A model generated the notes under the pieces. It saw nothing but the letters and a program-made list of their open reading frames with translations. It had not been told where the DNA came from and ran no database searches. From contig CACDFZ010000004.1 in assembly GCA_902552185.1 (NCBI GenBank), positions 1-64,000 on the forward strand: a stretch of DNA of 64,000 bases, read 5' to 3'. Made by a program: the position numbers and the translations under genes. Each line of letters starts with the position of its first letter. Position 1 is the first letter of the stretch. The stretch is from an uncultured Pelagibacteraceae bacterium. Lineage in GTDB: Bacteria; Pseudomonadota; Alphaproteobacteria; Pelagibacterales; Pelagibacteraceae. Below are positions 19,931 through 24,003 of the stretch, in pieces.

Positions 19931-20803
19931 ATGAAAAAAAAATTATTTGAAGGATCTTTATTTACTGTAGGTGCTTCTCTTTGGTGGGGTATCATTGGTG
20001 TAATTTATTTCAAATTTGTATCTTTTGCATCACCTATTGAATTGACAATACATCGTACTATTTGGACAACAGTGCTTTTGGTGTTTACAACCTTTTATTT
20101 TGGAAAGTGGTCAGAATTTAAAAAAGTATCTAAATCTCTGAGTACTCTAGGTTTATTATTTCTTACTGGAGTTTTAGTTTCTATTAATTGGTTTACATGG
20201 CTTTATTCTATCTCAGTAAACAATATGCTAGATGCATCGCTCGGATATTATATTTTTCCCATATTAAGTGTTTTTTTGGGAAGAATATTTTTAAAAGAAA
20301 AAATTAATAGAAATAAATCAATCGCCATATTTCTTGTCTTTTTATCTATAATTTATCTACTAATTGAATTTAAGAATATTCCATGGATTGGTTTAACAGT
20401 CGCAATCACATTTAGTTTTTATACTTTAATAAGAAAAAAAATAAATATTTCATCAGATATAGGATTATTTTTTGAAACTTTGTTGATATCCCCAATAGCA
20501 TTAATTTTATTCAGCTCTCTTGTTTTCAACAATGCAAATGTCTTTGGATTTGATAATCCTACATTATCTTTTTATTTGTTTTTTGCAGGATTTATGACAC
20601 TCGTTCCTCTCTTTATGTACATAAAAGGATTTGAATTAATAGGAATAGGACCTGCGAGCATGATATTTTTTTTGACACCAACAGCTCAATTTTTTTTAAG
20701 TATATTTTACCTGGGTCAACCACTTGAAATAGAAAAATTAATAAGTTTTTTATTTATATGGATAGCAGTAATAATTTACCTTAACGAATTGCGTAGAGAG
20801 TGA
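19931..20803 (+). CDS. rarD: EamA-family permease RarD
   Basis: A 290-residue protein with ten predicted membrane helices arranged as two EamA repeats. The start KKKLFEGSLFTVGASLWWG and the segment GYYIFPILSVFLGRIFLKE, followed by PLFMYIKGFELIG and GPASMIFFLTPTAQFFL, match the RarD branch of the drug/metabolite transporter superfamily. The substrate is unknown. It starts 69 nt from the divergent tRNA-Ser, and its last 28 nt overlap the end of thiV on the other strand. Confidence 0.85.
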   Translation: MKKKLFEGSLFTVGASLWWGIIGVIYFKFVSFASPIELTIHRTIWTTVLLVFTTFYFGKWSEFKKVSKSLSTLGLLFLTGVLVSINWFTWLYSISVNNMLDASLGYYIFPILSVFLGRIFLKEKINRNKSIAIFLVFLSIIYLLIEFKNIPWIGLTVAITFSFYTLIRKKINISSDIGLFFETLLISPIALILFSSLVFNNANVFGFDNPTLSFYLFFAGFMTLVPLFMYIKGFELIGIGPASMIFFLTPTAQFFLSIFYLGQPLEIEKLISFLFIWIAVIIYLNELRRE

Positions 20804-22227
20804 GATAAAATTATTATAAGAGGAACAAATAGAGATGTAAGAAAAGATATAAAAAGTAAATTTGTTCTAATAAAAATTGAAAAATTGTCGATAGATATCA
20901 AATTTCCCACTAAAATACTTGTCTCAAAATTTTGACTTGGAAAAAACAACAAGCCAAAAATCAAACCAAGAATTATTGAATAAGCTGCAAGTTTAGAATT
21001 AATATTTTTGTTAAAAAAACCATAAAAAATTGTAACAACAGCAGCACAGCAAAGAAGATCAGCTAGTAAAAATAAGTATAATATACTATATCCTCTTGAT
21101 GCAAAAATAAAAACTATAGTACATATAAATAAAATAATTAAATTTGTTTTTTCCTTAATTTTTTTTCCTTTAATGATTTTGTTTATTTGACTACCATTCA
21201 CGATTAGCAAACTTGAAATAGCATTTATTAATGTGTCAATTGTACTTAATGTTAATGACAATGCTAAAATTAATACCGACACAACTATAAAAGATTTTTT
21301 TTCATCTAAAATTAAGTTAAAGAAAGCAAGGTCTGGAGTAACTTTTGAGTTTAATGAAAAAGATATTAAACCTGAATATCCCATCCAAAAAACTATTATA
21401 AAAATTATAATAGATGAATTAATTAAACTTTTTTTCAAAACTGAATTATTTTTTGCTGAAAAAACTCTTTGCCAATTTCCTTGATGAAATAGATTGGTAC
21501 AAGCTACCGCTATGAAAAAAGTTAAACCTGCTGTGTAGTTGGGTAAATAATCTTTGCTAATCAATTGTGGTGAATTTATTCTTATTGTTTCATAGCTAGT
21601 TAGATTTAAGTTATTAAAAACTAAAATTAATGAAAATAAAATAATGCACATTATAAAAATAAACTGGTATTTGTCAGTAATTATTGAAAGTTTAAAACCC
21701 CCTCTTAATATATAAAGTAAACAAATGATTAAGGTTAAACCTGCGGTAATCCATAATGGAATTTTTGAAATATAATTTAATAAAAATGCTATAGCCGTCA
21801 CCTCAGCAATTAAAAAAATTATCAAATAAAATAGTATTAAGAATAAGCTTAATTTTAATATAGTTTGACCAAATCTTTTTTGTATAAATTCAGTTAGTGT
21901 TAAACCGTTTGGAAATTCTCTTCGGATTTTAGGGCCAAAATTGTAAAGAAATAACATTGGCGCGGCCGTACCTAATGCATAACCGATTACAGCACCTATC
22001 CCTCCCCAAGTTGCTGCAGAAGGAGGACCAAATAAAATCCAAGCTCCCAATGCTGATGCTGTTAGGCTCGAAGTTAATGAAAATGTATTTTCATCCCTAT
22101 CACCAACAATATAATTTTTATTATTAAATATTTTTTTATTATTTAAGTAACCCAGCCATATAAAGAATAGGCCAATTAATATTGTGATAGCTATTGTTAT
22201 TTGTTGCGATAAAAGTATTTTATCCAT
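20776..22227 (-). CDS. thiV: Sodium:solute symporter, ThiV-type thiamin-precursor transporter
   Basis: A 483-residue protein of the SSS family with about 13 membrane helices. Seen motifs are NYIVGDRDENTFSLTSSLTAS, GAWILFGPPSAATWGG and FPNGLTLTEFIQKRFG, typical of SSS proteins. The TPP riboswitch that fills its 5' leader ties it to thiamin. In SAR11 a riboswitch-linked SSS transporter (ThiV) has been proposed to import the pyrimidine precursor HMP. The substrate is therefore inferred from context; the sequence alone shows only the family. It is downstream of umuDC on the same strand and no separate promoter is evident. Confidence 0.85.
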   Translation of the reverse strand: MDKILLSQQITIAITILIGLFFIWLGYLNNKKIFNNKNYIVGDRDENTFSLTSSLTASALGAWILFGPPSAATWGGIGAVIGYALGTAAPMLFLYNFGPKIRREFPNGLTLTEFIQKRFGQTILKLSLFLILFYLIIFLIAEVTAIAFLLNYISKIPLWITAGLTLIICLLYILRGGFKLSIITDKYQFIFIMCIILFSLILVFNNLNLTSYETIRINSPQLISKDYLPNYTAGLTFFIAVACTNLFHQGNWQRVFSAKNNSVLKKSLINSSIIIFIIVFWMGYSGLISFSLNSKVTPDLAFFNLILDEKKSFIVVSVLILALSLTLSTIDTLINAISSLLIVNGSQINKIIKGKKIKEKTNLIILFICTIVFIFASRGYSILYLFLLADLLCCAAVVTIFYGFFNKNINSKLAAYSIILGLIFGLLFFPSQNFETSILVGNLISIDNFSIFIRTNLLFISFLTSLFVPLIIILSHSLRNSLR

Positions 22228-22293
22228 AGCTCCCTTACTGAATTACCGGTCAGGTTCTTCGGGTATAATCTCAGTCTTTCTGACACCCCGTAT
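22228..22293 (-). promoter_or_regulatory. TPP riboswitch (THI element) in the thiV leader
   Basis: Minus strand, reading toward thiV, the element has GGGGTGTC, a tiny P3 hairpin, the conserved CTGAGA, TACCCG, GAACCTGA, GGTAAT and finally AGGGAG. These are the thiamin pyrophosphate aptamer landmarks in the right order. The closing AGGGAG is also the Shine-Dalgarno sequence two bases before the thiV ATG, so ligand binding should hide the ribosome site and block translation. There is no room for a terminator. A clear P1 helix is not seen. Only about four bases separate it from the umuC stop. Confidence 0.93.
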
Positions 22294-22297
22294 TTTT

Positions 22298-23581
22298 TTA
22301 TACTACTATTTTAGGCAAAGAGTCAAATGAAGCAGTATCTATTTTAGATGAATGTTCTCTTCTCATTTTCCAACCTTTACTTAGTCCTGCTTGAGCTATA
22401 CTGATTGCGTATCGTCCGTATTTTGTATTAGTATAATCTATAGCTTTCATTAATTTCTTAGATTTGTTTTCAAGAAGTGGAGTTAAAAGATTCTGATCAT
22501 TTTGATTTGCATCTTTCAATCCTGATAAGATTATTCCAGCTTTTTGATAAGCATAACCGTATTTGTATATATCGGTTAGTGCTTTAACAGCATTTTTTAT
22601 TAATTCTATGCTATTACTAGTAGGAATTGCTAAATCTATTGTTTTTGAATTAGAGTAGTATCTTCTATTTTTATCAAATGGACTTGTTCTGATAAATACT
22701 GTTATTGTTTTTGCTATTTGATCATCAGCTCTAATTTTTTCTGCTGCATTCAAGCAATGTGTAATAACTGATTCCTCTAATTCATTTAAATCTTTTACTT
22801 TTCTACCAAATGATCTTGAGACACAACAATTTTTCCTTTTCTCTTGATCTATTTGTAAGTCAATACAAGGTATTCCTCTTAGTTCCATCGCTGTTTTCGC
22901 ACCTAAAACGTTTGTTCCTTTTTTTACCCACGTGTTTGAAACATTTTTTAAATCATAAGCGTTGCTTATATTGTTCTTATGGTAAAACTTAGATAGCTGT
23001 TTACCTACCCCCCACACATCTTCAATTGGAAATTTTTTTAACTTTTCATCAATATTTGTATTTAAATAAATTACACCTGCTTTTTCTTTTTTCGCTATAT
23101 GATTAGCCACTTTACTTAATGTTTTTGTGCTGGCTATACCTACGCTTGTTGGTATACCTGTCCACTTAAGAACTCTTGATCTTATCTCTCTTCCATAATC
23201 CTCAACTCCTTTTTCATCTATAAAAGATAAATCAATGAAAGCTTCATCGATTGAATAAATTTCTACTTTTGGTGAAAAAGTTTTTAATACTTTCATAACC
23301 CTTCTCGATATATCTCCATATAGTGCGTAGTTTGAAGAATATACTTCAACTTTATTTCTTTTTACTAAGTCTTTTACTTTGAAGTAGGGCTCCCCCATTT
23401 TAATACCTAAATCTTTTGCTTCTCTTGATCTAGATATTACACATCCATCATTGTTTGATAAAACAACTACAGCTTTTTTTTGTATCTTAGGATTAAAAAG
23501 TCTCTCACAGGATACGTAAAATGAATTACAATCTACTAAGGCTATTTTATTTTTCTTAGTTGTGTACTTGATGGATGACAT
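22298..23581 (-). CDS. umuC: DNA polymerase V catalytic subunit UmuC
   Basis: A Y-family translesion polymerase of 427 residues. The palm and fingers motifs are intact: ALVDCNSFYVSCERLF with the first metal Asp, VVVLSNNDGCVISRS, YSSNYALYGDISRRV, and YSIDEAFIDLSF with the catalytic Asp-Glu pair. A helix-hairpin region (WGVGKQLSKFY) and the little-finger domain follow. The NDGCVISRS and SSNYALYGD forms indicate UmuC and not DinB. It overlaps umuD by 26 nt, so the two are coupled, and both are expected to be SOS-induced through the LexA site upstream of umuD. Confidence 0.93.
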   Translation of the reverse strand: MSSIKYTTKKNKIALVDCNSFYVSCERLFNPKIQKKAVVVLSNNDGCVISRSREAKDLGIKMGEPYFKVKDLVKRNKVEVYSSNYALYGDISRRVMKVLKTFSPKVEIYSIDEAFIDLSFIDEKGVEDYGREIRSRVLKWTGIPTSVGIASTKTLSKVANHIAKKEKAGVIYLNTNIDEKLKKFPIEDVWGVGKQLSKFYHKNNISNAYDLKNVSNTWVKKGTNVLGAKTAMELRGIPCIDLQIDQEKRKNCCVSRSFGRKVKDLNELEESVITHCLNAAEKIRADDQIAKTITVFIRTSPFDKNRRYYSNSKTIDLAIPTSNSIELIKNAVKALTDIYKYGYAYQKAGIILSGLKDANQNDQNLLTPLLENKSKKLMKAIDYTNTKYGRYAISIAQAGLSKGWKMRREHSSKIDTASFDSLPKIVV

Positions 23582-23954
23582 AAGTTACCACTCCCCAAAT
23601 AATTACTTCTTGATCGTTTGCTAAATGAATTCTGTCTGATTTTTTTTTAGATCCAGATGTTAAAAATGTTTCCCCTTTTTCTTTCAGGATTGTTTTCACC
23701 ACTAATTCATCGTTAACATTGGCTATAACTGTTGAAAGGTTTTTTGGGTTAATACTTCGATCTACTATTAATAAATCACCATCGTAGATTCCTACGCTAT
23801 TCATAGACTTACCTTGAACTCTAATTATGAATGTTGCTGGTGAATTTTTTATAAGATGATGATTTAAATCTACATCATCCTCTATGTAGTCTGTCGCGGG
23901 AGAAGGAAAACCCGCTCCTACTTTGTGTATGTAATAAGGTATTTTCAGCTCCAT
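23556..23954 (-). CDS. umuD: UmuD-type self-cleaving subunit of DNA polymerase V
   Basis: UmuD is a LexA-like serine peptidase (Ser-Lys dyad) that cleaves itself with RecA filaments and then joins UmuC. The 132 residues contain the cleavage region VGAGFPSPATDY, here Ala14-Gly15 instead of Cys-Gly. Catalytic Ser50 lies in GKSMNS and Lys87 in ELVVKTIL; their 37-residue spacing equals that of E. coli Ser60/Lys97. The arm before the cleavage site is ten residues shorter than in E. coli. There is no DNA-binding domain, so it is not LexA itself. It starts 4 nt after a LexA box. Confidence 0.93.
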   Translation of the reverse strand: MELKIPYYIHKVGAGFPSPATDYIEDDVDLNHHLIKNSPATFIIRVQGKSMNSVGIYDGDLLIVDRSINPKNLSTVIANVNDELVVKTILKEKGETFLTSGSKKKSDRIHLANDQEVIIWGVVTYVIHQVHN

Positions 23955-23974: not shown

Positions 23975-24003
23975 TTTATAGAAAAAAATTTTACCTTAGT
24001 CAA
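23975..24003 (-). promoter_or_regulatory. Sigma70 promoter of the umuDC operon
   Basis: Reading the minus strand, -35 TTGACT (24003-23998) and -10 TATAAA (23980-23975) are separated by exactly 17 bp. Each hexamer differs from consensus at one base. The predicted start falls near 23968, inside the LexA box, leaving a leader of roughly 14 nt before the umuD ATG with no obvious Shine-Dalgarno. Confidence 0.8.

Follow-up and report, generated by a model that had tools for sequence, protein, structure and literature searches.

Direct translation attenuation, with the ribosome site in the aptamer core, is known from some thiamin pyrophosphate (TPP) and preQ1 riboswitches, TPP riboswitches being among its commonest users, and there the purine-rich conserved 3' end of the aptamer replaces the Shine-Dalgarno sequence (Barrick and Breaker, PMC2258182). 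A TPP riboswitch before the transporter gene thiV of SAR11 bacteria has already been published (Meyer 2009, PMC2704228; McRose 2014, PMC4260697; PMC11452348), and the SAR11 copy has been noted to be shorter than in other Alphaproteobacteria (Meyer 2009, PMC2704228; McRose 2014, PMC4260697). In 'Candidatus Pelagibacter ubique' HTCC1062 the THI element (RF00059), of the same gene and clade, lies in the SAR11_0810/0811 gap of 108 nucleotides (nt). Here we analyse the corresponding element in a stretch of 64,000 nt (the window) of an 821-kb SAR11 genome (Pelagibacteraceae), where, unlike in HTCC1062, the gap is 70 nt, follows umuC, and is preceded by a predicted promoter nested in umuC itself. On the whole, the locus probably carries a trimmed TPP-type riboswitch with its own promoter, which would control thiV by direct translational attenuation. 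All the evidence is comparative, and the counts below refer to related genomes, not to independent events.

Both genes lie on the minus strand and are separated by exactly 70 nt (22297-22228). The locus is arranged alike in the isolate HIMB058 (L197). The genes and the aptamer are as follows.

22298-23581, minus strand: umuC, DNA polymerase V subunit (PF00817, PF11799, PF13438; NF002955, 3e-122).
20776-22227, minus strand: thiV, sodium:solute symporter of 483 amino acids, the regulated gene, probable importer of hydroxymethylpyrimidine (HMP) (PF00474, 1.4e-15; SAR11 ThiV literature).
22231-22290, minus strand: TPP-type (THI-box) aptamer of 60 nt from the basal C of P2 to the conserved AGGGA, with P2, P3, J3-2 UGAGA and P4/P5 (RF00059 cmscan; about 75 same-genus genomes).
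22274-22284, minus strand: P3, three base pairs (GUC/GAC) with a 5-nt loop, then UGAGA (22273-22269), the pyrimidine-binding J3-2 (read from the sequence).

The initial annotation had taken this gap to be filled by a TPP aptamer with a very small P3, and both points hold. The RF00059 model matches 22300-22212 on the minus strand over its full span, with 40.8 bits and an E-value of 5.8e-7 in a 251-nt search, or 4.4e-7 when the whole genome is the covariance search space. In the covariance-model scan that had been suggested as a check, the match is there, but it falls below the curated gathering cut-off of 54.3 bits, and a default Rfam scan at that cut-off gives no TPP match in the window, so that the E-value mode is needed. 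Matches to RF00059 occur in 119 of 150 relatives, those of the same genus mostly directly upstream of thiV, and that about 75 same-genus genomes have this aptamer ahead of thiV is beyond chance. P2 (GGGGUG...ACCC) and J3-2 (CUGAGA, the pyrimidine pocket) are found in the window and in these relatives; P2, the 3-bp P3, UGAGA and the AGGGA end are almost invariant among them, and the second pair of P3 occurs as U-A, C-G or U-G across 69 distinct aptamers. The expected association with thiamin genes is also present, with thiV downstream here and an NMT1/THI5-like gene in the genus g16. The aptamer and its place are thus established by comparison, and the element is confirmed as a real TPP-type aptamer, whose ligand is assigned by homology alone; on that ground TPP is the likely default. 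Single-sequence folding of the window RNA gives z of about -0.6 to -0.8, the aptamer being too short for this to be informative. The genome's other RF00059 match, a weak one at C3:106082 (20.5 bits), falls within a long open frame and is regarded as chance, and a search of phage records for the element found nothing.

The ribosome site lies inside this aptamer, as the following segment shows.

22231-22236, minus strand: AAGGGA, P4 3' strand and Shine-Dalgarno sequence in one, with AAGG (22236-22233) 5 nt before the thiV AUG (sequence; spacing in 75 genomes).

The P4 3' strand reads RAGG (AAGG or GAGG), which is a Shine-Dalgarno sequence, and in each of the 75 same-genus loci the distance from AGGGA to the AUG is 1-6 nt (2-3 nt in 67); because this spacing is kept in every one, we place the ribosome site within the aptamer core. 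The earlier proposals that the AGGGA end is itself the Shine-Dalgarno sequence and that control is translational without a terminator agree with these results, no terminator-like site having been detected in the umuC-thiV gap. A Shine-Dalgarno sequence inside a TPP aptamer is a recognised mechanism and not a new one; compared with the described cases (PMC2258182), it here characterises an entire lineage of SAR11 and goes together with the loss of P1. In the second family of the order (L007-L032), canonical TPP aptamers are seen with a P4 Shine-Dalgarno sequence GGAGG, 2-8 nt before the gene of a secreted binding protein that looks ThiB-like by eye.

The initial annotation had also held that the message must start upstream, there being no room for a separate promoter. 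This part is not borne out, since a sigma-70-like pair extends over the 3' end of umuC, stop codon included, with a -35 element that is protected at synonymous sites.

22321-22326, minus strand: -35-like TTGACT, within the umuC codons TTT GAC TCT (sequence; synonymous constraint).
22297-22302, minus strand: -10-like TATAAA, overlapping the umuC TAA stop (sequence).

The pair TTGACT-N18-TATAAA spans 22326-22297, falling in the final 29 nt of umuC and the stop codon, and ends 7 nt before the aptamer; it was missed by our consensus promoter scanner, which requires T at the last -10 position. TTGACT-N18 with a TATAAT-like -10, ending 7-10 nt before GGGGTG, is present in 66 of 75 genomes. When 65 umuC genes are aligned, synonymous change is absent from just three of the 241 conserved codon columns, two of which are the neighbouring TTT and GAC. 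The Asp codon of the -35 is GAC in 65 of 65 genes, with GAC making up only 17% of Asp codons across umuC and the ten other invariant Asp columns favouring GAT. Two loci without the umuC frame at this place (L041, L043) still have TTGACT-N18-TATAAT or TAAAAT at 7 nt. Where the aptamer lies 26-48 nt beyond umuC (L064, L065, L073) the constraint on TTT GAC is lost, and in L065 and L073 a promoter-like pair stands downstream of the umuC stop instead. In L121 (g16) the umuC 3' end, the promoter-like pair and the aptamer are all kept before an NMT1/THI5-like gene rather than thiV, and because both are kept with a different downstream gene, promoter and aptamer appear to form a unit. The constraint on the promoter nucleotides is thus established by comparison. 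These results support a sigma-70-like promoter of thiV's own, with a candidate start near 22290, the first base of P2; the nested -35 and -10 appear to be under selection with the 16-18 nt spacing of a sigma-70 promoter, whose activity is predicted.

The same data bear on the alternative that thiV is read mainly through from the promoter of umuDC, with the aptamer carried on a umuD-umuC-thiV message and the -35/-10 pair a by-product of the UmuC protein sequence. Two further features are relevant to it.

23556-23954, minus strand: umuD-like peptidase, first gene of the umuDC pair (PF00717, NF007621).
23975-24003, minus strand: TTGACT-N17-TATAAA directly before umuD, the window's only other match to the pattern (pattern search).

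A promoter-like pair thus precedes umuD, the genes share one strand across a 70-nt gap without a terminator-like site, and the umuC-thiV adjacency is kept in most same-genus genomes, all of which would fit read-through. On a by-product of protein sequence, however, one would not expect TTT GAC to be synonymously frozen in 65 of 65 genes with a rare Asp codon, nor the pair to persist without the umuC frame, nor the constraint to relax where the aptamer is more distant; moreover, umuC is absent upstream in other SAR11 lineages. We therefore consider read-through as the main route unlikely.

Two changes in the aptamer had gone unremarked in the initial annotation, namely that the P4-P5 internal loop is gone and that P1 is not detectable. 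The E. coli thiM aptamer resembles the window RNA in P2, P3, the UGAGA T-loop, P4, L5 UNAU and the AGGGA end; it differs in having P1, a longer P3 and the internal loop A61 U62 / C77 G78, where the window RNA has one base pair, and the window RNA is without a separate expression platform.

22233-22254, minus strand: shortened P4-P5 hairpin CCUGACCGGUAAUUCAGUAAGG, in which one base pair (22250:22237) takes the place of the loop equivalent to thiM A61 U62 / C77 G78 (Rfam alignment; covariation).

In the Rfam alignment of the window the model positions 65-66 and 81-82 are deleted, and our own mapping equates them to thiM A61 U62 and C77 G78; the two-by-two internal loop is gone, while exactly which bases were lost depends on the alignment. 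Across 69 distinct sequences the replacement pair is A-U in 58, U-A in 9 and G-U in 2, with no mismatch. The segment from ACCTG to AGGGA is 15 nt long in the window, whereas canonical aptamers have 19 nt there. Of 397 genomes of the order, 260 carry the 15-nt form; they all belong to one family (f1), the second family having none, nor does any of about 380 other alphaproteobacteria have it. The 19-nt version of the pattern recovers canonical aptamers from 49 of 96 members of the class. Within the family the lengths form a graded series of 19 nt (g12, g18), 17 (g15, L064), 16 (g14) and 15 (g1, g13, g16, g19), the 17-nt form of g15 and L064 retaining CG. Since the replacement pair covaries without mismatch and the family shows this series, the short hairpin is, by comparison, a conserved remodelling rather than random decay. 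Seven matches to the 15-nt pattern in viral contigs have neither GGGGTG nor a riboswitch context and are considered chance. As separate observations, the same short aptamer precedes an NMT1/THI5-like substrate-binding protein instead of thiV in L119, L120 and L121 (g16), and the copies of L064, L065 and L073, before a divergent type of ThiV, have a 17-nt P4-P5 with the CG of J5-4 retained.

As to P1, the best flank helix averages 3.76 base pairs against 3.75 ± 0.07 for shuffled partners, so that none is detectable, which fits a message beginning at P2. By eye, the basal relatives g12 and g18 show a P1-like GUUUUC/GAAAAC pairing with a longer spacer to the AUG, and g15 a GUUC/GAAC pairing. A hidden P1 formed with the start codon (AUA/UAU) in the window does not recur among relatives and was rejected. 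The missing P1, together with the predicted weakness of P4/P5 and the score below the Rfam cut-off, could suggest a decayed, non-functional TPP riboswitch kept merely for its 3'-end Shine-Dalgarno sequence. We find this very improbable, as the core is near-invariant in about 75 genomes though the ThiV proteins diverge by up to half, the new pair shows compensatory changes and no mismatch, and the same short form precedes another gene in g16.

A second question raised by the remodelling concerns the ligand. In thiM, C77 and G78 touch the pyrophosphate of TPP or its metal (PMC7824784; PMC3764141). With this site gone, a conserved pair in its place and the pyrimidine site (J3-2 UGAGA) intact, the RNA might sense HMP, HMP-P, thiamin or thiamin monophosphate (TMP) instead of TPP; besides, the regulated genes import a pyrimidine precursor (ThiV, or the NMT1/THI5-like binding protein in g16), and SAR11 cells are HMP auxotrophs (SAR11 thiamin literature). 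However, the RNA still has G60, which is also a metal contact, and its purine-rich 3' end, the remodelled helix may hold Mg-pyrophosphate in another way, and riboswitches of this family ordinarily serve end-product feedback by TPP. A changed ligand is accordingly a possibility to which we give rather low weight. The broader version, that SAR11 as a family has lost the pyrophosphate sensor and that its riboswitch now responds to a pyrophosphate-free vitamer (HMP, or thiamin/TMP), is likewise doubtful.

Returning to the preferred reading, a TPP-type riboswitch with its own promoter, we infer the start site, the ligand and the direction of control from the features above. The promoter, with its -35 in the last umuC codons and its -10 over the stop, would start the thiV message at the aptamer or no more than a few bases away from it. 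If a thiamin-type ligand (most likely TPP) is abundant, it would clamp the P2/P3 and P4/P5 arms together; the arms so held would stabilise P4, in whose 3' strand the Shine-Dalgarno sequence would be masked and the ribosome kept off. When the ligand is scarce, P4 would open and ThiV, the HMP importer, would be made, which is the behaviour of an OFF switch. Several points weigh against this reading. In AT-rich DNA, promoter-like pairs are no rarity: TTGAC[AT]-N16-18-TATAA[AT] has two matches in the window, and shuffled sequences give 0.9 ± 0.8, or 0.9 expected per 64 kb. Some read-through from umuC to thiV may occur. P4/P5 is predicted to be weak (-2.6 kcal/mol), and with the C77/G78 equivalents gone TPP may bind weakly or may not be the ligand. 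In the literature we found no start-site, binding or reporter data for the clade, and a 2024 paper on HTCC7211 states that riboswitch ligand specificity and activity still await confirmation (PMC11452348).

Around the locus, the 3' ends of thiV and of a rarD-like gene (19931-20803, plus strand) overlap by 28 nt at 20776-20803. L064, L065, L073 and G072 (G072:C8 / G072:C58) have a ThiV of another, divergent type (45-51% identical), and G072, an assembly with 7% contamination, bears both types.

In the literature that we searched, with some key papers out of reach, neither the loss of the P4-P5 loop, nor that of P1, nor the nested promoter was found described. The promoter, coding end, stop codon, sensor and ribosome site are packed in about 100 nt of a streamlined genome, and the nested promoter cautions against deducing operons from small gaps. 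Published work takes the element to be an ordinary TPP riboswitch, and the conserved loss of pyrophosphate contacts with compensatory pairing sharpens the question of the ligand. How SAR11 regulates ThiV matters for vitamin B1 cycling in the ocean; if the riboswitch did respond to a vitamer without pyrophosphate, a very abundant group of marine bacteria would gauge the supply of B1 precursors directly.
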